From: Candidatus Deferrimicrobiaceae bacterium
GTDB taxonomy: Bacteria > Desulfobacterota > Deferrimicrobia > Deferrimicrobiales > Deferrimicrobiaceae
NCBI GenBank assembly: GCA_036504035.1
Contig: DASXVV010000008.1
Coordinates: 186,001 to 250,000 of the forward strand
Reading direction: 5' to 3'
DNA: 64,000 bases
Numbering within the stretch: the first letter of the stretch is position 1; each line of letters begins with the position of its first letter. The position numbers and the translations under genes were made by a program. The notes beneath the pieces are model-generated. The model saw only the letters and a list, made by a program, of their open reading frames with translations, was not told the DNA's origin and made no database searches. Of this stretch, positions 2,640 to 63,892 are shown in pieces.

Positions 2640-2660
2640 CCGGTGCTGCTCCAAAGCTAA

Positions 2661-3317
2661 TCAGGAAATTCCCAAGAAGCCTTTCGATTTGCGATTAATC
2701 TTGGAGGTATCCTGTCCAAGACCTTGTGCGGTTTTTTCCACGGCTTTGAAGACGCAGTTATCGATGTTGGTCAGGTAGGAGCGAAGATCACTTTCATCGA
2801 AAAGATCGAGGTCCGCGAGCGTGGCGGGAATGACATTGACATACGGCAGCAGGAGCAGCAGGGATTGCAGGAGAGTCGGTTTGTAGAGCAGGTGCCAGGA
2901 AACCACTAGATTTTCTCCGTAGTCGCGGGCGTTGACATAGATTTGATAGGGTTGGAGGCGGTAGTTGCCATGGTCGCGAATGGTAAGGAAGTCACGGGAT
3001 TTCCCAATGAGTCCCGTGACAATCCCCGGAGTCATGGATTTACGTGCCATTGAAAGGTTGGGGACCTTAGAGTCGTTGATGAAAAACTCGGAATCATTAA
3101 AAACGTCTTCGGCCTTGCCATGGGCTTTTTCGATCATGGTTCCCCATGTCTCTTTCACTTGGCCTTTTTTGAGAATTCCATCCGGACCGAAGCCGAAATA
3201 CAGGCCGGCGACAATCAGGACGAGGCCTATGAAACCAAATACATGAGAGAAGATGGGAGCTAGGATGAGACAGATGAGGCCAGCTACGACCAGAGCGACG
3301 ATGGTTCCTTTTGACAT
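2661..3317 (-). CDS. Membrane-anchored protein of unknown function
   Basis: A 218-residue protein. Two hydrophobic segments at residues about 5-40 form an N-terminal membrane hairpin. The soluble remainder has a hydrophobic stretch near residues 150-165 (LLQSLLLLLPYVNVIPATL). The ATG at 3317 has GGAGGG five bases upstream; a longer frame starting at 3365 has no better site. The gene ends 21 bases before the ATPase start, so the two are probably co-transcribed and may act together at the membrane. I do not recognise the family. Confidence 0.6.
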   Translation of the reverse strand: MSKGTIVALVVAGLICLILAPIFSHVFGFIGLVLIVAGLYFGFGPDGILKKGQVKETWGTMIEKAHGKAEDVFNDSEFFINDSKVPNLSMARKSMTPGIVTGLIGKSRDFLTIRDHGNYRLQPYQIYVNARDYGENLVVSWHLLYKPTLLQSLLLLLPYVNVIPATLADLDLFDESDLRSYLTNIDNCVFKAVEKTAQGLGQDTSKINRKSKGFLGIS

Positions 3318-3936: not shown

Positions 3937-4030
3937 CAGATTAGATTGAATATATATTTTGAGCTATCCACAGCTTGCTCGCAAAATATTTCGTTTTGTT
4001 ATTTAATTCTTGTTAGTTATATCTTGTTAG

Positions 4031-4069
4031 TGCCCTCCGGTGATGCCTATTAAGCATCCCTAGAGGGCA
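4031..4069. promoter_or_regulatory. Two-step hairpin between mobile-element genes
   Basis: An outer 7-bp stem (TGCCCTC at 4031-4037 with GAGGGCA at 4063-4069) encloses an inner GATGC/GCATC stem. It sits between the end of the winged-helix gene (4087) and the start of the RuvC-like gene (3936), both on the minus strand. There is no T-run, so an operator or an RNA structure is as likely as a terminator. Confidence 0.4.
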
Positions 4070-4086
4070 TATAGGGTATCAAAATG

Positions 4087-4413
4087 CTACACATCAGTTT
4101 TGAGCAGAAAATATCGATGGTTCTTTTTGCCTCTGGCGACAAATATTAATTTACGCGCTTCCAACTCCCACAGGGCGCGTTGGACACTGCTCCGAGCTAA
4201 ATTCAAGAAGTCAGCTAGATATTCTTGGCTCGGATATGATTTTTGCTGCCGGTCGGCAAAGTATGCCAGCGCGTTGTAGACCAGCATAGTCGAGAATCGC
4301 ATGTCTTTAGCATGTTTAGACAGAATCTCCTTGTGAATCCAATACCACGGGCCATCTTGCATGTTTCTTAAGGGCCTTGGAAGAGCGTTGGCGCATAACA
4401 GGAGTTGGTTCAT
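4087..4413 (-). CDS. Winged-helix DNA-binding protein
   Basis: A 108-residue protein. Residues about 40-100 (STMLVYNALAYFADRQQKSYPSQEYLADFLNLARSSVQ in outline) form a helix-turn-helix of the kind at the N-terminus of plasmid and phage replication initiators (HTH_36 type): a YPSQEYLA recognition lead-in, an RSSVQRAL helix and an ELEARKLI wing. It could regulate the downstream RuvC-like/ATPase genes or help start replication of an excised circle. The true start may be an internal ATG (MQDGPWYW). It is separated from the XRE gene by 14 bases, suggesting one operon. Confidence 0.6.
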   Translation of the reverse strand: MNQLLLCANALPRPLRNMQDGPWYWIHKEILSKHAKDMRFSTMLVYNALAYFADRQQKSYPSQEYLADFLNLARSSVQRALWELEARKLIFVARGKKNHRYFLLKTDV

Positions 4414-4427
4414 TAAATTGAAATATA

Positions 4428-4709
4428 TTATTTAAGCTTGTTTGTTTTTATGCTTTCTTCCTTCTTCATGATTTCCTCTCGTAGTTGTCGGACGGTATCC
4501 AGATACAAGGCCTCGGTGATGGTGCGATAGACAATCGCTAATTGAAAAAGTTTGATCGGACGTGGAAACCGTTCGCCATTTTCCCAGCGGGATATGAGGC
4601 TGGTGTTTTTGATCCCCAATAATCGGGCGACCTCTTTTTGTTTTAATCCTCTGGCTTTGCGATGTTTGCGCAGAAGATTGTTTTCTAGGGTGAGATAATA
4701 TTTTCTCAT
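4428..4709 (-). CDS. XRE-family helix-turn-helix regulator
   Basis: A 93-residue protein with a complete XRE helix-turn-helix at residues about 10-65 (LLRKHRKARGLKQKEVARLLG, then SLISRWENGERFP), followed by a short helical tail. It is the first gene of the minus-strand run 4709 to 486 and lies about 170 bases from the divergent small gene and xis/int, so it probably controls one or both directions. The family normally acts as a dimeric repressor. Confidence 0.8.
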   Translation of the reverse strand: MRKYYLTLENNLLRKHRKARGLKQKEVARLLGIKNTSLISRWENGERFPRPIKLFQLAIVYRTITEALYLDTVRQLREEIMKKEESIKTNKLK

Positions 4710-4880
4710 CTTTTTTTGTTTTACGAATTACTCTTTCAGAATACCCCCGAGCGAAATGAAAGGAATAGGGAAGAATTTGCCGGAAGCGGCAAATATGCTG
4801 GTATGCACAGTAAAGGAGAGAGTATTTGATGGAAGAGGCGGTTATTACTGGCTTACAGATAAAAAGTGTTGGAATACAAT

Positions 4881-5069
4881 ATGTGTATGAAGATACCAAA
4901 AGAAACTATCCAAAACATCAAAGACATCTATTTCGAGGACTTCGGGGAGCGGATTACGAATGCTGAGGCCCAGGAATTGGCCGAAAGGTTGATCTATTTC
5001 TATATGGTCATCTATCCGTCCAAATCAAATTCGGATCAGGAAGAGATTATCGACCTCGATCTTCTTTAG
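4881..5069 (+). CDS. Small conserved-looking protein of unknown function
   Basis: A 62-residue acidic protein beginning at one of two nearby ATGs (4881 or 4887). The sequence (IPKETIQNIKDIYFEDFGERITNAEAQELAERLIYFY) is helical with a repeating hydrophobic pattern. It reads like the short proteins often found just upstream of excisionase and integrase genes in integrative elements. No clear Shine-Dalgarno is present. Function unknown; it could be a recombination-directionality or regulatory cofactor. Confidence 0.5.
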   Translation: MCMKIPKETIQNIKDIYFEDFGERITNAEAQELAERLIYFYMVIYPSKSNSDQEEIIDLDLL

Positions 5070-5111
5070 TTGCCAGCATTTGTCTAAACAATCTAATCCA
5101 TGCTATATATG

Positions 5112-5153
5112 GCAATACAGCCCAACAACAAACAAATTGTTGACCTGTATTGC
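5112..5153. promoter_or_regulatory. Long inverted repeat upstream of xis
   Basis: GCAATACAG at 5112-5120 and CTGTATTGC at 5145-5153 are perfect 9-bp inverted arms. Inner CAACAA/TTGTTG arms extend the symmetry. The repeat sits 15 bases before the excisionase start. The same 9-mer recurs at 6710-6718, beyond the integrase. It could be an operator, or arm-type sites bound by Int or Xis. Confidence 0.6.
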
Positions 5154-5167
5154 TCATTAACAATTAA

Positions 5168-5368
5168 ATGAATACCGACGACAATACAATCAAGCTATAC
5201 ACTATCGACCAGGTAGCTGCGATTATGAGCGTTTCAAAAATCACGGTCTATCGGTTGATCGAGTCCAGAAAAATTCCCTACTACAGGATCAAGGGTTGTA
5301 TTCGATTTGCGGAAGCGGATGTCTGGGAATATCTGAGAAGCAATCGTATTGGGCCGGAAGACAGATAA
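5168..5368 (+). CDS. Excisionase-type helix-turn-helix protein
   Basis: A 66-residue protein that is almost entirely one MerR-like/excisionase DNA-binding domain: YTIDQVAAIMSVSKITVYRL, then IESRKIPYYRIKGCIRF and AEADVWEYL. Proteins of this size beside a tyrosine integrase usually bend attachment-site DNA and favour excision. The stop is six bases before the integrase ATG, so the pair is translationally close. The inverted repeat just upstream may be its binding site. Confidence 0.8.
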   Translation: MNTDDNTIKLYTIDQVAAIMSVSKITVYRLIESRKIPYYRIKGCIRFAEADVWEYLRSNRIGPEDR

Positions 5369-5373
5369 TATAT

Positions 5374-6537
5374 ATGAGCGTAAGAAAAATTAGGAATTCA
5401 TGGTGGGTTGATTTTCGTTTCAATGGTCAGAGATACCGGAAAAGAAGCCCTGTGAATTTCAAGGAAGGAGCCTTGGACTACGAATCACTTATCAGGCAAA
5501 AATTGGCTCGGGGTGAATCACTTGAGGACGAAAAGAAGAAGCCGGATGATGACTTCAAGACGTTCGCTTGGGAGTGGTTCGAGATATATGCCAAGAACAA
5601 CAACAAACATTCTGAAATATTGAGCAAAGAGACTACGCTAAGGGTTCATCTCGTTCCTTTCTTCGGAAAAATAAAAATTGGTAAAATTGATAGTCTTAAG
5701 GTCGAAGAATACAAGCGCCTCAAGGCAAAGTCAAATTTGTGCAACAAAACCATTAATAACCATTTGGCGATTTTGCGAAAATCTTTGAGCACTGCCGAGG
5801 AATGGGAACTCTTGGATCGTATTCCGAAAGTCAGACTCTTAAAGGTCCAGCCGCAAAAATATGACTTCCTGTCGGAGATAGACTGCAAAACATTGCTTGG
5901 CAGTCCAAACGGTATAATCGGAGATATGATTCTTATAGCTCTAAGGACAGGACTTCGCTTCGGTGAGATTATTGCCCTAGAGTGGCAGGATATTGATTTA
6001 GACAGACGGATGCTTTCCGTCAACAAATCCATTGCTCAGGGAGTCTTAGGGAGCCCCAAGAGCAACCGAGCACGCCATATCCCCCTATCATCTGATGTCT
6101 TTGAAATGCTCGGAGGTAGATATCAAAAAATCGGTTTCGTATTCGCAGGCGGAGATGGGAAACCATTGCGACAGTCATTTTGCGGTACAGTCCTTCATCG
6201 TATTTGCCGAGAAGCCGGATTACGGAAAATCGGTTGGCACACCTTGCGACATACCTTTGCCTCGACCTTGGTCAAGAAAGGAATATCCCTAAAAGCTGTC
6301 CAGGAACTCTTGGGGCATTCCGATATCAGAATGACGATGCGTTATGCCCATTTGAGTCAATCCGAATTGCGGTCAGCCATTGATGTCCTAGATCCGCAAA
6401 ATGATTTTGGGCAACAGATGGGCAACACTCGACAATTCCGAGTCGCGGTCACCAATCAATCGGAAATGGACAAAGTCGATTATCTGGCTCTACAAAAGCA
6501 AAAAGTCGATACCGAAGTACCGACTTTCTGCGATTAA
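5374..6537 (+). CDS. Tyrosine recombinase (phage/ICE-type integrase)
   Basis: A 387-residue site-specific integrase. Residues 1-60 resemble an arm-binding AP2-like domain (RKIRNSWWVDFRFNGQRYRK). A SAM-like core-binding domain follows, then the catalytic domain with LRTGLRFGE (first arginine), HTLRHTF (H-x-x-R) and MRYAHLS (nucleophilic tyrosine). The ATG at 5374 was chosen over the longer frame because it directly follows the xis stop and begins the known domain. It should cut and rejoin att sites for integration and excision. The C-terminal tail after the tyrosine (about 45 residues) is unremarkable. Confidence 0.9.
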   Translation: MSVRKIRNSWWVDFRFNGQRYRKRSPVNFKEGALDYESLIRQKLARGESLEDEKKKPDDDFKTFAWEWFEIYAKNNNKHSEILSKETTLRVHLVPFFGKIKIGKIDSLKVEEYKRLKAKSNLCNKTINNHLAILRKSLSTAEEWELLDRIPKVRLLKVQPQKYDFLSEIDCKTLLGSPNGIIGDMILIALRTGLRFGEIIALEWQDIDLDRRMLSVNKSIAQGVLGSPKSNRARHIPLSSDVFEMLGGRYQKIGFVFAGGDGKPLRQSFCGTVLHRICREAGLRKIGWHTLRHTFASTLVKKGISLKAVQELLGHSDIRMTMRYAHLSQSELRSAIDVLDPQNDFGQQMGNTRQFRVAVTNQSEMDKVDYLALQKQKVDTEVPTFCD

Positions 6538-6540
6538 ATT

Positions 6541-6565
6541 TGTACCGCGTATGGGATTCGAACCG
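6541..6565 (-). other. tRNA 3'-end-like fragment, possible attachment core
   Basis: Four bases after the integrase stop, the minus strand reads GGTTCGAATCCCATACGCGG, which resembles the T-loop and 3' acceptor half of a tRNA. No 5' half, anticodon arm or paired T-stem is present. Tyrosine integrases often insert into tRNA 3' ends and leave such a duplicate, so this may be an att core. The rest of 6566-6734 holds only the GCAATACAG copy and no visible gene. Confidence 0.35.
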
Positions 6566-6734
6566 CCAAATACAGCGAAATAAAATCCCTTAAACACGGT
6601 ATTTTCTCGAAAGTAAGCAAAAACTTACTGTATCAAATCTAATCTGTTATTATCTAAAATATCTATCTTTATCGCTTTTTGGGCAACAGGCGGTCAACGC
6701 TTGTATGTAGCAATACAGGGAAGAGATAAAATAA

Positions 6735-7211
6735 CTACTCCATCTGCTTGCTGGAAATCTGGGCAGATACAATGGCGGAAGAGGTTTGAACAAATTTTAC
6801 AAACCTTTTATTTTGATATTTACGAATATCGTTCCATATAACCCTAGGAATTGGAAGGCTGAAAAAATCTACGATATCTTTTCGTAATCCGTCTATCGGT
6901 GCAATGGCGTTAGCCTCTATCGCTTCAAATGTTGCGTTTAAATGAAGGATCATCATAGTGACAAATATTCTCTCTTCTCTGGTTACTTGCCGTCGAGACA
7001 AATCAACTGCTGGATCAAATATAACTTGCAACTCCGGGTGTTCGAAGGTGTTTGCCCACATATCTCGATGATATTGTGTGATTTGGAAAAGATTTGCGAT
7101 TCGTTGGGATTTATTATTCGAGCGTAATGTGTGAGCAGTAAAGAGTAAGCTACTCATTATGCCAAGTGTCTGTATAACGCTAAACCAATTTGTGCTAAGC
7201 CATTGAACCAT
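6735..7211 (-). CDS. Membrane-anchored protein, third gene of a three-gene module
   Basis: A 158-residue protein if started at the ATG at 7211, 14 bases after the upstream stop; an in-frame ATG at 7277 would add 22 residues and overlap that gene. A single membrane segment (WFSVIQTLGIMSSLLFTAHT) is followed by a helical cytoplasmic part with HRDMWANTF, FDPAVDLSRRQVTREE and IPRVIWNDIRKY. From memory this pattern recalls DUF6082/DUF4760-like proteins, but I am not sure of the family. Co-directional with the DUF6879-like gene and the small protein upstream. Confidence 0.55.
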   Translation of the reverse strand: MVQWLSTNWFSVIQTLGIMSSLLFTAHTLRSNNKSQRIANLFQITQYHRDMWANTFEHPELQVIFDPAVDLSRRQVTREERIFVTMMILHLNATFEAIEANAIAPIDGLRKDIVDFFSLPIPRVIWNDIRKYQNKRFVKFVQTSSAIVSAQISSKQME

Positions 7212-7224
7212 CGAATGGGCATCG

Positions 7225-7827
7225 TCACTTAAGACGATTTTGCCTTTCAAAGTGACCAAATGGTATTGATATTTCATGGTATCGGGTCGCCAAATCAGCA
7301 AATACTCTTACATCATCAAGATCGTCAATCAGCCATCCTCCGTTTGATTGACCGTTCTTGTCATAATTATGGACAAGAACGGTCTTAGCATCAAACATAA
7401 GAAAATCCGAAGCAATGTAAAGATCAGAGCTGTGGTCAATATTGGTAAGATCAACGACCAGAATCCGTTCTCCATATTTTGAGCTTATCCGATAGGATTC
7501 AAATTCATAGTTTAAATATTCAGATAACGGCTTTTCAACCGCCCTCATTCGAATGATGCTTACATTTTTTCTTGCTGCCTGTTCATAAAACAAATGAAGC
7601 GCTTCGATCCTATTTTCCAGATGTTGTATGGCACTATCCATATCTTTTTGTTGGAAAGCTTGGTAGCTAGGATCATCCGGTTCGTAGTAACTTTGAAGAC
7701 GTTCGAACTTAAAAAATTGAATAGATAGTGCGCTCCAAAATTTAGAGAAAGCATCGTCAAATGACGCGGCATCAAGTGCCTTCGCTTTGCGTATTGCGTT
7801 TGATACTTCGTTATTTAGGGTTTGCAT
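7225..7827 (-). CDS. DUF6879-like protein
   Basis: A 200-residue protein. It has the layout I know from DUF6879 proteins, which are common in actinobacteria: an early FDDAFSKFWSALSIQFFKFERLQSYYEP block, a middle IRMRAVEKPLSEYLNYEFESY block, a GERILVVDL segment, then DFLMFDAKTVLVHNYDKNG and a C-terminal FADLATRYHEISIPF helix. The function of the family is not established. The gene begins two bases after the small upstream gene stops and runs into the membrane-protein gene, so all three should be co-translated. Confidence 0.6.
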   Translation of the reverse strand: MQTLNNEVSNAIRKAKALDAASFDDAFSKFWSALSIQFFKFERLQSYYEPDDPSYQAFQQKDMDSAIQHLENRIEALHLFYEQAARKNVSIIRMRAVEKPLSEYLNYEFESYRISSKYGERILVVDLTNIDHSSDLYIASDFLMFDAKTVLVHNYDKNGQSNGGWLIDDLDDVRVFADLATRYHEISIPFGHFERQNRLK

Positions 7828-7829
7828 GT

Positions 7830-8060
7830 CTATGATATGTAAGGTTTTGCTCCAACAAGTATCCGACGTGGAATTACGACAATTTTCTCATCAGGGCCGC
7901 AGTTGGCATCGTTTGGGAGCGAAGGAACGAGAAGATTAGTCTGGTCAATACCAATGACTGCAATGTCGCCGTTTTCCAATTCCCAAATATCGGGGCATCC
8001 AGTCAGTCCGGGTGTCTGTCCTGCGTCATGCGGATGGGGACCGAGCCGTTTTTTGAACAT
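7830..8060 (-). CDS. Small protein that pairs with DUF6879-like genes
   Basis: A 76-residue protein starting at the ATG at 8060, which has a strong GGAGGTGG just upstream; a longer frame starting at 8135 lacks such a site. Conserved-looking elements are GCPDIWELENGDIAVIGIDQT and CGPDEKIVVIPRRILVGAK. I recall very similar small proteins next to DUF6879 genes in Streptomyces and related bacteria, which makes this module look imported or shared across phyla. Function unknown. First gene of the module. Confidence 0.6.
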   Translation of the reverse strand: MFKKRLGPHPHDAGQTPGLTGCPDIWELENGDIAVIGIDQTNLLVPSLPNDANCGPDEKIVVIPRRILVGAKPYIS

Positions 8061-8185
8061 TTGCCACCTCCATGATAAGTCTGGCAGGATGAGAGACCTT
8101 CCTATAGGTTCGCTATAGCATGATGCAAATTGCATGTCAATCCATTATTTGCACTCGGGCGTCGGATGCAGAGAGCGGCCAAGGA

Positions 8186-58429: not shown

Positions 58430-59518
58430 TCATGCAGCCCTGGCGACTGCCCACACGAAACCGGCCAGTTCCCGCGCGACCGCCACCTTCGTGACGCCGG
58501 GCCGTTTCCCCCTCGCCATCATATCCACGAACTTCTTGTGCAATCGAGCCTCCGCCTTCAGGGCAATGCCGACCACCCCGGGCGACTGGCTTTCCCTCCG
58601 TTTCCTGATGGGCAACCCGGGCCGATCGGGCGGTTGCCGATAATGCCACGCGCTTTCCATGAGCGTTTTCCGCGCATGCACATTCCCCGTCTTGGTGGCG
58701 TGCCCCCGACTCTGCTTTCCCCCGCTCGAATGCTCCGAGGGCACCAACCCGACGAAAGCCATCAGCTCGCGTGGATTGCCGAATCGCTGGATATCGACCA
58801 GTTCCGAAACAAGCGTCAGCGCCGTCAAGGTGTCTATGCCCCGCAACGCCCGAAGACGCCCCACGATTGGCGCGATGGCAGGCCGGGAGGCCTCTGCCAC
58901 GATCCGCTTGTCCAGTCGAGCAATCCGGTCGATTCCCTGTTCGACGATATGGACGTACTCCAGGAAAACCGTCTGCGCATTTCCATCATCGAACGCCTGG
59001 GAGCGGAACCATTCCCAGTGGGATTTCGACCACGCCTTCCCTTCGTATCGCCTCCCGCGACGAAGCATGAACTTCCCCAGCCGGTGGCGTCCCCGCATCA
59101 GATCGTTCCGGGCATCCTCCCGGCAGCGAAGCAGATCCCGCAGCGCCTCCTGCTCCTCCGTCGGGACCAGGATCGACGTCAATTCCCCCATCCGGTGCAT
59201 CCGCGCCAGTTTCTCCGCGTCCCGCCTGTCGGTCTTCACCCGGTCGCCCGGCTTCCTCGGGATCAGCGCCGGCGCGATGACCTCGCAACGGATTCCCCTG
59301 GCCGCCAGGAGGCGATGCAGCGCATACCCGCACGGGCCCGCCTCGTAAACGCACCGGGCGTCCCCCAGAACGGCCAGCCGTCCGGCAAGCCGTTCGTTAC
59401 CCACGGGGGTATTCGGAATCTCCCACCGGTCGACGACATCCCCAGCCTCCCCGACGACCGCGCCCACGATAGATGCCTTGTGGACGTCCATCCCGACCCA
59501 CGCAACCGGACTCTGCAT
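58430..59518 (-). mobile_element. IS110-family insertion sequence, transposase gene
   Basis: A 362-residue IS110-family transposase starting at the ATG at 59518 after AAAGGAG. The N-terminal DEDD (RuvC-like) domain begins WVGMDVHKASI and includes a KTDRRDAEKLARM block. The C-terminal transposase_20 domain has LRALRGIDTLTALTLVSEL, FVGLVPSEHSSGGKQSRG (with the serine needed for activity) and HARKTLMESAWHY. Nothing looks broken. Family members move with the help of a bridge RNA made from one non-coding end. It separates alaS from the integron integrase gene. Confidence 0.88.
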
Positions 59519-59915
59519 GGCAACTCCTTTCCGCCGGACGAACACACGCGACGCATCCGCCCGGATCGTCATTACTTTGATATCCGCCAGCCCGTTCCGG
59601 TTTTTCCCCAACCCCTTCCCCGCTTCCCGGAACGCCCGTTGCATCGCACGCCTACATCACCGGCACAGGGGGAGTCCTCATGCAGCGAAACAATCGTCGT
59701 GGTCCGGCCCGCAGGGCCGTTTACGGCGCCGTCTACCGGTTGGAGGATGGCATTCTCCGGTTTCATTTCCGCCCGGCCATCCCCCGAAAAGGCGCCTGTT
59801 CATCCGCAAAACGGACTCCCCGTCCAGAATCCTGGTCCGACCGGGATACTTCCCATAGAAAATCCCGTCGCCTCTCCCCACCTGAAGGCGGGGAGCAATA
59901 AGGAAGATCATAAAA
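59519..59915. other. Non-coding region between IS110 gene and integron integrase
   Basis: About 400 bases with no supported gene. It contains several GC-rich self-complementary stretches (for example around 59690-59740 and 59870-59895). It lies upstream of the transposase, where IS110-group elements carry their bridge-RNA end. The IS boundary is not marked by inverted repeats, as is normal for this family, and cannot be fixed from the sequence alone. Confidence 0.4.
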
Positions 59916-61223
59916 ATGAGTTACGATCCAGGCCCGCACAGAATGCGTGTCAATCCCGTGTCCCGGTCCGGCCGAGTTTCGATTGCCGTTTCTGTTCCGG
60001 CCTCCTGTTCCATATCCCCCACAACTTTCGAACGACAGGCGATGGCGGGTGGAGAACGCATAAAATGGTTTGCTCGGTTGCTCGATGCTTACGGAGATCT
60101 TCCGAGTTTCGTTCCCGATTCATACTTCTCTCGTTCGGAGACATCCTCTTCAGGAGATCCCGCCCCGGTTCCCCCGAACCCGATTTCCCTGTCCGTTTCG
60201 GGTCTGGAGTTCGGATGCCCGGGAAATTCGGTTCCCGTCGCCGATGTAAAGCCAGACTGTGAACTACCCGAGATACTCGATCGCATTCGGAACGAGATTC
60301 GGAAGCGACACTACAGCCGACGTACAGAGGAGGCATACTCCGACTGGGTATCCCGGTTCGTTTGTTTCCACAGATTACGATCTCCCCGTTCGATGGGAAA
60401 AGCGGAAGTCGAAGATTTCCTCTCCGACTTGGCCGTTGGCAAGAACGTGTCTGCGTCCACCCAGAATCAGGCAATGAGCGCCCTTCTCTTTCTGTATCGC
60501 GACGTGTTGGGCATACAACTCGAGTGGCTCGATGCGGTTGTTCGTGCAAAACGACCGCAGCGCCTCCCGGTAGTGCTGACCCGGGAGGAAGTGTCCGCGA
60601 TGTTCCGCCATCTCGCGGGAACCAACCTGATCGCCGCGATGCTGCTATACGGGGCGGGGCTCCGGCTGATGGAATGTCTGCAACTTCGAATAAAGGACAT
60701 CGATTTCGGCTATCGCCAGATCACCGTGCGACAAGGGAAGGGCGGCAAGGATCGGATCAGCATTCTACCGTCAGCGATCGAACCCCGCTTGAAGCATCAC
60801 CTCGAAGACGTCCGGGCAAAATTCGAAAATGATTTGAAGAAAGGGGGCGGCTACGTTAAACTCCCGGGGGCGATCTCCCGAAAATACCCCAACGCCGATC
60901 GCACATGGGGTTGGCAATGGGTATTCCCGGCCCACCGCAAGTTCGAGGATCCCGAAACGGGGGACAATTGTCGCCACCATCTTCACGAAACGGTTCTTCA
61001 ACGCGCAGTGAAAGAAGCCGCGCATTTGGCCGGTCTCGAGAAACACGTCACCTGTCATACGTTCCGTCACTCGTTCGCGACGCATCTCCTGGAAGACGGA
61101 TACGACATCCGCACGATCCAGGAGTTGCTGGGCCATCGCGACGTCAGCACAACAATGATTTATACACACGTCCTCAACAGAGGAGGCCGTTGCGTCCGCA
61201 GTCCAATGGACGTACTCCGATAA
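59916..61223 (+). CDS. intI: Integron integrase (IntI-type tyrosine recombinase)
   Basis: A 435-residue tyrosine recombinase. From about residue 118 it matches Int[21 protein letters not shown] core-binding start, [15 protein letters not shown] (first Arg), then an insertion ([20 protein letters not shown] in outline) typical of integron integrases that bind folded att[21 protein letters not shown] and TTMIYTHVL complete the R-H-x-x-R-Y set. The first 117 residues are unusual and unrecognised; an ATG at 59916 after AGGAAG gives the full length but an internal start is possible. The gene points toward the cassettes, which lie past its 3' end. Confidence 0.88.
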
Positions 61224-61463
61224 CGTCGACAGTTCCGGATCGCGCCCCTTCCCTCGCAGCCTATCCCCCTCACCATTTTCCCCCTCCTCCGCAGTCTATC
61301 GCCCTTCCCCCCAACCTCTCCCCCCCAACAATTCCAAACCCGTTCAACAACCTATTGCCATTCAGGACCCGTTACCATCAACAATATCTCGCTCCGTTTC
61401 AAGTCTATCGCCCTTCCAGACCCAGACTAAAAAGAACCTAATTTAAGTTAGGCACACTAAACA
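61224..61463 (+). other. attI: Probable attI region of the integron
   Basis: Between the integrase stop and the first cassette ORF lies a C-rich stretch with a 16-bp direct repeat. It ends in GTTAGGC at 61447-61453, the consensus crossover site of integrons. The first cassette would begin at 61448. This stretch is the only candidate for attI because it adjoins both intI and the first cassette. Confidence 0.6.
61293..61417 (+). repeat. 16-bp direct repeat in attI region
   Basis: AGTCTATCGCCCTTCC occurs at 61293-61308 and again at 61402-61417. Direct repeats that bind IntI flank the crossover site in known attI sites, so these may be accessory binding sites. Confidence 0.6.
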
Positions 61464-61922
61464 ATGAAATATATAACAGGCGAAATTAAAAAATCTTTGT
61501 TTCAAAACATTCTCAACGCCTCTGTCGAGTTGGGAGGAAGTCGTATAGTTTTTTGGTACTACCCGGAATTGGAAATAAGAAGACAAAATATATTATTAAA
61601 TCAATTTGAGGAATATTTAATAGGGCGAGACAAATATGAACCGGTTACGCTTTACGGCGGTGGTGATGACCCAAAACCTGTTGAGGAAACACCAATTTCG
61701 TATAAAATTAATAAAGATAATATTGGATTGCTAGCAAATAATATTTCAAGAATTATTAAGGTCTGTAGTGATATTGCAATATATAACGAAGAGAGCAGGG
61801 AGTGGATAACAGCAATTATATTTCATGAAAGAATTGGTTTGATTAAGGATAGTCCAAGCGCTGATAATATATTAAATAAAGCAAATATTATATTTTCAAA
61901 CTATAAACCGGATTGGTTTTAG
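61464..61922 (+). CDS. Cassette 1 protein, unknown
   Basis: A 152-residue, AT-rich cassette gene lying between the presumed attI crossover (61447) and attC1. The protein is soluble, with an N-terminal alpha/beta portion (GEIKKSLFQNILNASVELGG), an RIVFWYYPELEIRRQNILLN segment, and a C-terminal helix ending KPDWF. No ribosome site other than the AGG inside GTTAGGC is visible, which is common for first cassettes. No family recognised. Confidence 0.6.
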   Translation: MKYITGEIKKSLFQNILNASVELGGSRIVFWYYPELEIRRQNILLNQFEEYLIGRDKYEPVTLYGGGDDPKPVEETPISYKINKDNIGLLANNISRIIKVCSDIAIYNEESREWITAIIFHERIGLIKDSPSADNILNKANIIFSNYKPDWF

Positions 61923-61932
61923 GCATTTAGGT

Positions 61933-62033
61933 GCCTAACAAAGCGTTGAAGCTGACAGCCCTTCAGTCACGCTTTTAATATTCTCGCTGTAAAAAGCGCG
62001 CCTTCGTTCTGCAGCTTAACGCTGGCGTTGGGC
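61933..62033 (+). other. attC1: attC1 recombination site
   Basis: A 101-base imperfect palindrome. It begins with R'' GCCTAAC, has inner pairing AAGCGTTGAAGCTGAC against CTGCAGCTTAACGCTGG, and ends with R' GTTGGGC (62027-62033). Its centre (ACGCTTTT...AAAAGCG) folds further. All parts of a canonical attC are present. Confidence 0.9.
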
Positions 62034-62065: not shown

Positions 62066-62704
62066 ATGCCTGAAATCGTTTACTTGCTTACAAATGAATT
62101 TATGCCGGGGTTGGTGAAAATAGGACGTACTGGAGATTCTGTGGAATCGCGAATATCAACCTTAAGTGCAAATAGTGGAGTTCCAGCCCCATTTGAATGC
62201 TATTTTGCGGCAGAAGTGAACAATGCAGCAGATCTTGAAAGTAAACTGCATTTATTGTTTAAGGAGCATAGGGTGAATGAGAGGCGAGAGTTTTTTAAGG
62301 TTTCACCAGAAAAAATTGTATTAGCAATAAGTATTGGGACATATAAAGAAATAACACCAGGGAAAGCGGATATAGAGGATGAGGGAAGAATTGCACTAGA
62401 GAGGGTAAGGGCGAATAGGTCCCCATTGAGATTAAATGCAATAGGTATAAATAAAGGAGATGTGCTTTCATTTTCTAGAGATGAAAGTATAACTGTTACG
62501 GTTGGCGACGGCGGTAAAGTTATATTAGATGGGGAATTGCTAAGCTTATCACCAGCAGCACTAAAGGTATTAAATTCTAAAGGATATAAATCAACATCGG
62601 TTAATGGGGCATTGTATTGGGTGTATGACGGAGAATTATTGTCTGACAGAAGAGATAGGTTGGAAGCGGAACAGTATGAGGAAACCAAAGAAGATGAGAT
62701 ATAA
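62066..62704 (+). CDS. Cassette 2: GIY-YIG (T5orf172-type) protein
   Basis: A 212-residue protein with GGAGGCG before its ATG. Residues 1-90 match the T5orf172/MUG113 branch of the GIY-YIG nuclease superfamily: IVYLLTNEFMPGLVKIGRTG, then a conserved arginine (SRISTLSANSGVP) and EHRVNERREFFKV. The C-terminal domain (GINKGDVLSFSRDESITVTV, ...LDGELLSLSPAALKVL, ...GALYWVYDGELL) resembles the small DNA- or modification-sensing domain often fused to this family. It may nick or recognise foreign DNA. Cassette spans about 62028-62818. Confidence 0.8.
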   Translation: MPEIVYLLTNEFMPGLVKIGRTGDSVESRISTLSANSGVPAPFECYFAAEVNNAADLESKLHLLFKEHRVNERREFFKVSPEKIVLAISIGTYKEITPGKADIEDEGRIALERVRANRSPLRLNAIGINKGDVLSFSRDESITVTVGDGGKVILDGELLSLSPAALKVLNSKGYKSTSVNGALYWVYDGELLSDRRDRLEAEQYEETKEDEI

Positions 62705-62723: not shown

Positions 62724-62824
62724 GCCCAACAAAGCGTTGAAGCTGACGACTCTTCAGTCACGCTTTTATTCCTATCGATGGTAAAAGCGCGCCTTCGATT
62801 CGCAGCTTAACGCTGGCGTTAGGC
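62724..62824 (+). other. attC2: attC2 recombination site
   Basis: A 101-base site of the same architecture as attC1: R'' GCCCAAC (62724-62730), GTTGAAGCTGAC/CAGCTTAACGC arms, a central GCTTTT/AAAAGC stem, and R' GTTAGGC (62818-62824). Close similarity to attC1 and attC3 suggests a shared history. Confidence 0.9.
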
Positions 62825-62852
62825 GTACAGCAATAAAAGGAGGCAAGTCCAA

Positions 62853-63797
62853 ATGATAAAAAACTTAAAGCATCAACCGCTAATCGGAGAAATTTTGCCA
62901 GGTTCTTTGACGGTAGGATTAATAGCTGTGTCCTATTTTAACATTCATAGGTACGAGTTATCTTTAATAACAAAAGATACAATAAATGGGATATTTGCAT
63001 TAACAATATTATTTCTAAGTGCATGGACAACAGGGACAATATACGATGCCATTAGAAATGGGATAGTTGAAGATTTACTAGATCGCAAAAATCCCATTTC
63101 GTGGGACTTCTTTTTCAAAGAAAATATTGATAAAGTTCACCAGATTGAAGAATATTATTTTTGTTATTACACATTAGAAATAAATTATTTGATAGGCATA
63201 TTTATATTTGCTGTACTTCATTTGCCAGTGTTGAAATATATAGGGATCCCATATATTGAGTTAAGCCCTTTAGCAATATGGGCATGGATGTCATTGGCAA
63301 TAGTTTTTGTGGTTTTCGCGAAGGATGCAAAAGTGCTTAGAAAAGAAATGGGTAAAATAATTAATAAAGTTATGGGATTGGAGGTCGAAATGGGATTGCC
63401 GCACACAAATTCATACACACGCCTGAAGCCGTCAACAGTTCATGGGGTTGGTGTTTTTGCAATCCGAGATATTCCAGAGGGAACAAATGTATTTGCTGAT
63501 GATAAAGGTAATATGGTCTGGGTAACAACTGATAAATTGGAAGGATTGGCACCAGAGATCATAAAATTATTTGATGATTTTTGCGTATTGAAAGAAAATA
63601 AATATTATTGTCCAGATAGTTTTAATAACTTGACAGTCGGATGGTATATAAACCATTCAAAAGATAAAACAAATGTGAAATGCACAGATGATTATGATTT
63701 TATTGCGACGAAACATATAAAAATAGGTGACGAGCTATTAGCTGATTATGAATCTTATAGTGATAACTTAAAAAATAAAATATTAACTGACGCCTAA
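62853..63797 (+). CDS. Cassette 3: membrane protein fused to a SET-domain protein
   Basis: A 314-residue frame with AAAGGAGG upstream. Residues 1-175 form about four membrane helices (SLTVGLIAVSYF, INGIFALTILFLSAWTTG, INYLIGIFIFAVLHL, PLAIWAWMSLAIVFVVF) of no recognised family. Residues 180-314 are a compact bacterial SET protein: HGVGVFAIRDIPEGT, YINHSKDKTN and GDELLADYES are the S-adenosylmethionine and substrate motifs of lysine methyltransferases. An internal ATG at 63390 with its own GGAGG starts the SET part. The stop codon lies inside R'' of attC3. Confidence 0.75.
   Translation: MIKNLKHQPLIGEILPGSLTVGLIAVSYFNIHRYELSLITKDTINGIFALTILFLSAWTTGTIYDAIRNGIVEDLLDRKNPISWDFFFKENIDKVHQIEEYYFCYYTLEINYLIGIFIFAVLHLPVLKYIGIPYIELSPLAIWAWMSLAIVFVVFAKDAKVLRKEMGKIINKVMGLEVEMGLPHTNSYTRLKPSTVHGVGVFAIRDIPEGTNVFADDKGNMVWVTTDKLEGLAPEIIKLFDDFCVLKENKYYCPDSFNNLTVGWYINHSKDKTNVKCTDDYDFIATKHIKIGDELLADYESYSDNLKNKILTDA
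63380..63392 (+). promoter_or_regulatory. Internal Shine-Dalgarno and start of the SET protein
   Basis: GGAGG (63380-63384), a 5-base spacer and ATG (63390-63392) lie in frame inside the cassette 3 gene, exactly where the SET-type sequence MGLPHTNSYTRLKPS begins. The free SET protein would have 135 residues, a normal size for bacterial SET proteins. Confidence 0.75.
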
Positions 63798-63892
63798 CAA
63801 CAAGTTAAAGCTGACAGTCCTTCAGTCACGCTTTTGTTTCTTTCGTTTGTAAAAGCGTGCCTTCGCCCTGCAGCTTAACTTGAGCGTTAGGA
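63792..63892 (+). other. attC3: attC3 recombination site
   Basis: A 101-base site with R'' GCCTAAC (63792-63798), AAGTTAAAGCTGAC/CAGCTTAACTT arms, a central GCTTTT/AAAAGC stem, and R' GTTAGGA. The last base of R' departs from the GTTRGGC consensus, which marks the start of the next cassette. The remaining 108 bases to the window end hold no clear gene. Confidence 0.85.

Follow-up and report, generated by a model that had tools for sequence, protein, structure and literature searches.

The open reading frame (ORF) at positions 62853-63797 on the forward strand of the window, by which we mean the whole 64,000-nucleotide stretch of DNA analysed here, is very probably the joined form of a two-gene module in which a four-helix membrane protein is followed by a small SET protein. 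Taken as a whole, we find it rather likely that this is a fused two-gene module whose SET domain controls an effector-like partner, with inter-genomic conflict as a likely setting. The ORF was defined from the ORF list of the window, from Pfam and from a re-match to the genome. It starts with ATG and runs in a single frame of 314 codons, and it was observed once in the genome contigs, without an internal stop. A Shine-Dalgarno sequence (AGGAGG, 62838-62843, forward strand) is located 9 nt ahead of the ATG at 62853.

The C-terminal part of the protein is a SET module of 135 aa with its own possible start (63390-63797, forward strand), which is delimited by Pfam, by homology to the relative at locus L022 and by an AF2 model. 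Residues 198-299 of the 314-aa protein match Pfam SET (E=2.8e-8, 34.6 bits against a curated cut-off of 22.4), the module by itself gives E=4.3e-9, and the Pfam core lies at about 63444-63749 on the same strand. The SET fold is confident in the AF2 model of residues 180-314 (pLDDT 88), where the closest PDB folds found by Foldseek are vSET (E=1.9e-7), SETD8 and MLL. The SET motifs of the window protein are GVG, NHS and ELLADY.

The N-terminal part (residues 1-179; 62853-63389, forward strand) is referred to here as membrane module type A and is defined by homologous separate ORFs in four other loci. It carries the motifs ILPG, G-x3-DaiRn, W-x-FF and DA-x2-LRkE and has four hydrophobic peaks, at residues 10, 46, 114 and 137, of which only the last two are strong; its homologue in L022 also has four peaks, each of at least 1.9. 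No family match was found for residues 1-179 in Pfam, NCBIfam, PADLOC, PHROGs or the PDB. BA5345_fam was considered for this module and set aside, as it was sub-threshold in one member (L103, 17 bits against 40). The full-length AF2 model (pLDDT 46) was too poor for a fold search of the whole protein. Six K/R residues are found within residues 156-180, forming a basic stretch past the last helix. The even number of helices together with this basic stretch suggests a cytoplasmic SET domain, for which the membrane domain would be arranged N-in/C-in; the charges in the other loops do not settle the arrangement. An earlier note on this DNA had placed a membrane domain and a SET domain in one protein, and the hydrophobic peaks, the Pfam match and the AF2 fold all agree with this.

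The two parts were found as separate genes in other loci. As an example, L022, which was found by scanning viral contigs with SET-domain alignments, has a SET gene 60% identical to the window SET module. Directly upstream, and sharing an ATGA overlap with it, is a four-helix membrane ORF of 172 aa (2656-3174) with 33% identity to the N-terminal part of the window protein (E=3e-25). Separate type-A membrane ORFs were also observed in L101 (4090-4629, 34% identity to the window module), in L103 (4492-4986, 30% identity, with a GTGA overlap with the SET ORF) and in L175 (966-1493, homologous to the window module). Type-A membrane and SET parts are separate genes in four of the five cases and lie in different frames in all four of these relatives. 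The proposal of the earlier note that two formerly separate genes were fused is borne out by these overlapping ORFs. It had further held that relatives with a stop codon before the internal ATG would mark the fusion as only a local mutation; four relatives do have the halves as separate ORFs, and the fusion is therefore local or derived for type-A membrane proteins. In L022, genes that by eye resemble those of a Mu-like repressor, MuA and MuB adjoin the membrane/SET pair (4447-8152), so that the pair is possibly cargo of a prophage or else host DNA beside an insertion.

A fusion from an L022-like ancestor would require a frame change and therefore a sequencing or assembly indel is a live, minor rival, where the cell would have two overlapping ORFs like those of the four relatives. 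A one-base change could join halves that lie in different frames, and the internal Shine-Dalgarno sequence and ATG are intact. However, the genome is in 14 contigs with an estimated completeness of 100% and SET fusions with other partners occur too, and we regard such an artefact as quite unlikely. A merger of two separate cassettes inside the integron, which the earlier note had suggested and which would fit a gene with two starts in a cassette array, is extremely improbable since the junction has no attC remnant, the low GC content is the same in both halves (31.8% and 33.1%) and the membrane/SET pair is known outside integrons.

Comparison of sequences shows that the internal GGAGG-ATG matches the place where the second gene of the pair begins. 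The GGAGG (63380-63384, forward strand) is located 5 nt ahead of the ATG at 63390 (codon 180), and the PH codon sits 12 nt past this ATG, which is the same distance as at the SET starts of L022 and L102. The claim of an in-frame internal start exactly at the SET part is thus upheld, as it coincides with the SET gene start of L022. When the codons of the gene were shuffled, GGAGG-N5-ATG arose anywhere in 2.0% of the versions and no more than ten codons from the domain boundary in 0.16%. In the fusions with other partners (L017, L096, L098, L099, L105 and L107) no in-frame ATG with a Shine-Dalgarno sequence was observed directly at the boundary of the SET part; in L098 such a start precedes the boundary by 57 nt. 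Since the internal start has a genuine gene start as its homologue, the making of both products is plausible, and its retention at the SET boundary fits a recent fusion with the start possibly in use. On balance, the start at 63390 is probably used and would give some free SET protein, which would restore the two-protein state. As it has kept the second start, the fused cassette also represents a state midway between two coupled genes and one protein.

The ORF lies in an integron cassette, as had been claimed, with attC sites on both sides and an integrase gene upstream, all on the forward strand. The integrase gene intI was assigned from the family-matching part (60273-61223; NCBIfam TIGR02249, E=1.8e-141, residues 120-434) of an ORF at 59916-61223, and a putative attI core, GTTAGGC, is located at 61447-61453 ahead of the first cassette. 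The attC of the preceding cassette (62724-62824, with R'/R'' boxes and a hairpin of -37.2 kcal/mol) forms the left border of the fusion cassette. The attC of the fusion cassette itself (63792-63892, hairpin of -35.5 kcal/mol) overlaps the stop codon of the ORF and shares 77-81% identity with the other attCs in the array. A further attC hairpin is found at 61933-62033, and attC identity across the array is 77-90%. The GC content of the fused ORF is 32% against 59.5% for the window. The host contig stops 23 bases beyond the window end, and another contig of the same genome (L010, G000:C9) has three attCs near its end which are 77-90% identical; the array therefore probably continues there. A search for attC near the other SET-clade loci examined gave none, with a finder that missed one of the three window attCs, so that this absence is not absolute.

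Several other genes of the array and its surroundings were observed. The preceding cassette (62066-62704) encodes a GIY-YIG/T5orf172 protein which matches the PADLOC phage-defence candidate PDC-S57 (E=1.3e-64), and this adjacent cassette is a candidate for phage defence. The first cassette gene (61464-61922, 152 aa) has no significant match in the family libraries searched. Besides the three attCs, the end of the other contig has on its reverse strand a gene pair that by eye is Phd/RelE-like, as well as a small, seemingly secreted protein. An ORF that by eye resembles an IS110-family transposase lies between alaS and the integrase (58430-59644, reverse strand).

With the full 314-aa protein as query, no relatives were found in genome contigs, plasmids, the host family or the host class, and only the SET part gave matches in 395 genomes of the host phylum. 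SETs occur in 20 of these 395 genomes, none being close to the SET of the window apart from its own, and membrane family A occurs in one of the 395, again that of the window. Close relatives are found in MAGs of Planctomycetota, Acidobacteriota, Bacteroidota, Ignavibacteriota, Myxococcota, Thermodesulfobacteriota and Verrucomicrobia, together with viral contigs. Such a distribution would fit horizontal transfer and capture by the integron of the window. Tandem pairs of small SET genes were also observed in the phylum of the window (L005/L008 in G277 and L007/L009 in G315).

A scan of genome contigs with SET alignments gave 38 further SET loci. Most members of the SET clade have a predicted partner, either fused or coupled, and the partners are of several unrelated kinds: membrane families A, B and C, FRG, a DUF4760-like protein, and a protein with C-terminal membrane segments. 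Of the 22 clade members whose flanks were long enough, 18 have a partner, which is fused in 8 and adjacent or overlapping in 10, and none was recognisable in the other four (L104, L106, L108 and L110); L112 and L114, which are truncated by the ends of their contigs, stand outside this count. As the partner loci were found via the SET domain, copies of the membrane family that stand alone elsewhere may have escaped the search. Membrane family B is fused to SET in L096, L098 and L099 and overlaps SET in L097, and the SET of L107 is fused to another membrane protein, family C. The earlier remark that no bacterial SET protein was known to be fused to a multi-span membrane domain does not stand beside these four fusions, which involve other membrane families. 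A relationship between the type A and type B membrane modules was rejected, as profile comparison gave a probability of 0.9%.

FRG is fused to SET in L017, L105 and L111, overlaps it in L113 and is frame-broken in L100, and the FRG partners match the PADLOC candidate PDC-S15. FRG has been described as an anti-viral effector of the ART superfamily, possibly an NADase (PMC9503650). One of the four FRG-SET loci L017, L105, L111 and L113 is on a viral contig. Directly ahead of the SET genes of L095 and L102 lies the gene of a protein with membrane segments at its C-terminal end. The two uncharacterised proteins (4021-4920 and 4169-4972, respectively) are homologous to each other (33% identity, E=4e-44) and have a conserved Cys cluster. 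A DUF4760-like membrane protein is found downstream of SET in L109, and in L003 and L004, which hold more distant SETs, the SET gene overlaps an upstream DUF4760-type gene. A conserved third gene downstream of SET was considered in L103, L105, L109 and L111 and rejected, since the ORFs are unrelated and only that of L109 is the DUF4760-like partner.

The partnered clade comprises 21 rows of the SET tree (support 95/90), and the stand-alone SETs of Patescibacteria, archaea and phages fall outside it (97/86). The window groups with L022 (96/87). Within the clade most forks lack resolution, and the number of fusion events was therefore not counted. All 52 SET sequences have GxG, N and the catalytic Tyr without variation. 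NHS retains its His in 7 of 23 sequences of the partnered clade and in 27 of 29 others (Fisher p=3e-6, with relatedness ignored); it is lost in the other 16 of the clade, and the window protein has NHS. The post-SET cysteine cluster (CxCxxxxC), which occurs in many, not all, SET-domain lysine methyltransferases, was found after the core in neither the window protein nor its clade and is present in the distant L003 and L004.

The arrangement, in which a constant domain is coupled by overlap or fusion to many unrelated partners, FRG among them, resembles the regulator-effector modules of prokaryotic conflict systems. Among the possible roles we tentatively place first that the constant SET domain regulates effector-like partners, and next that SET is the effector. 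As a regulator, the constant SET domain would bind S-adenosylmethionine (SAM) and control or modify the partner, and the partner, whether membrane-acting or an ART-superfamily FRG, would do the work. A likely setting would be inter-genomic conflict such as anti-phage defence, where, for example, methylation or SAM-dependent binding might restrain the partner until infection alters it. A wider and more doubtful proposal is a new conflict module, in which SET would be the constant SAM-dependent sensor or regulator of interchangeable effectors (several membrane proteins unrelated to each other, FRG ADP-ribosyl/NADase-type enzymes and DUF4760-like proteins), mobilised between phyla and seen here as a fused integron cassette. 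PADLOC, which holds no model for the membrane or SET parts, gave no match for the window protein or its membrane relatives. The flanks of the partnered loci are mostly housekeeping, with scattered PADLOC defence-family matches among 115 genes, counted without a control set, and the flanking genes lend weak support to defence islands.

If SET were instead the effector, it would act as a protein methyltransferase on cytoplasmic or invading proteins, and the partners would be sensors or localisers at the membrane or target. The invariant catalytic Tyr and cofactor-binding GxG and N, together with the complete SET fold (AF2, Foldseek), speak for such an enzyme, and small multi-helix domains commonly tether enzymes to the membrane. 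However, the FRG partner is itself a predicted enzyme and a proposed immune effector, and loss of the NHS His in 16 of the 23 clade sequences would be unexpected if enzyme activity were the point; we consider this role rather unlikely. Less likely again is a membrane-anchored SET protein with no conflict role, which would methylate a house protein and have spread by chance horizontal transfer. The housekeeping genes that mostly flank the loci and the sporadic presence, with the membrane part in 1 of 395 host-phylum genomes, would fit this, but the partner swapping, the integron and viral-contig occurrence, the scatter over many phyla and the FRG partner resemble mobile conflict genes.

Discussion of SET proteins from bacteria has mostly treated them as effectors against host chromatin or as small enzymes on their own. 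In the loci described here, one SET subfamily forms part of a modular system whose partners resemble membrane effectors or FRG immune enzymes, across many phyla. Control of a partner protein would be a plausible native prokaryotic job for SET domains, and it is directly testable with two small genes. A 2014 review of bacterial SET proteins does not contain the words transmembrane, operon or integron (PMC3980110). Our literature search gave no description of FRG-SET, a membrane-SET module or a SET integron cassette; its coverage was incomplete and the novelty of the module is therefore a lead and not proof.

Compared with the known members of the SET family PF00856 (SETD8/KMT5A, MLL and viral vSET), the window SET has the same fold, GxG, N and catalytic Tyr. 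It differs in that identity to them is below 30%, its clade is without the post-SET cysteines and often has the NHS His replaced, and the clade SET sits C-terminal to membrane or FRG modules. A bacterial SET domain is common to the window protein, NUE of Chlamydia and AnkI/LegAS4 of Legionella. The match of the window protein to NCBIfam AnkI is weak (E=0.002, 16.9 bits against a cut-off of 550) and leaves it outside that family, and it is without the ankyrin repeats of AnkI/LegAS4. Unlike NUE and AnkI/LegAS4, the clade has a predicted integral membrane or FRG partner, and its SETs are found in bacteria not known as intracellular pathogens. FRG-domain proteins (PF08867; PDC-S15) are joined to or overlap SETs of the same clade, where the window has a membrane module instead. 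DUF4760 membrane proteins (PF15956) are coupled to SET in L003, L004 and L109, and the window membrane module was not homologous to them by the searches run. With other integron gene cassettes the window shares attC borders, an integrase and a low-GC ORF, and it differs from them in the fusion that this ORF encodes.
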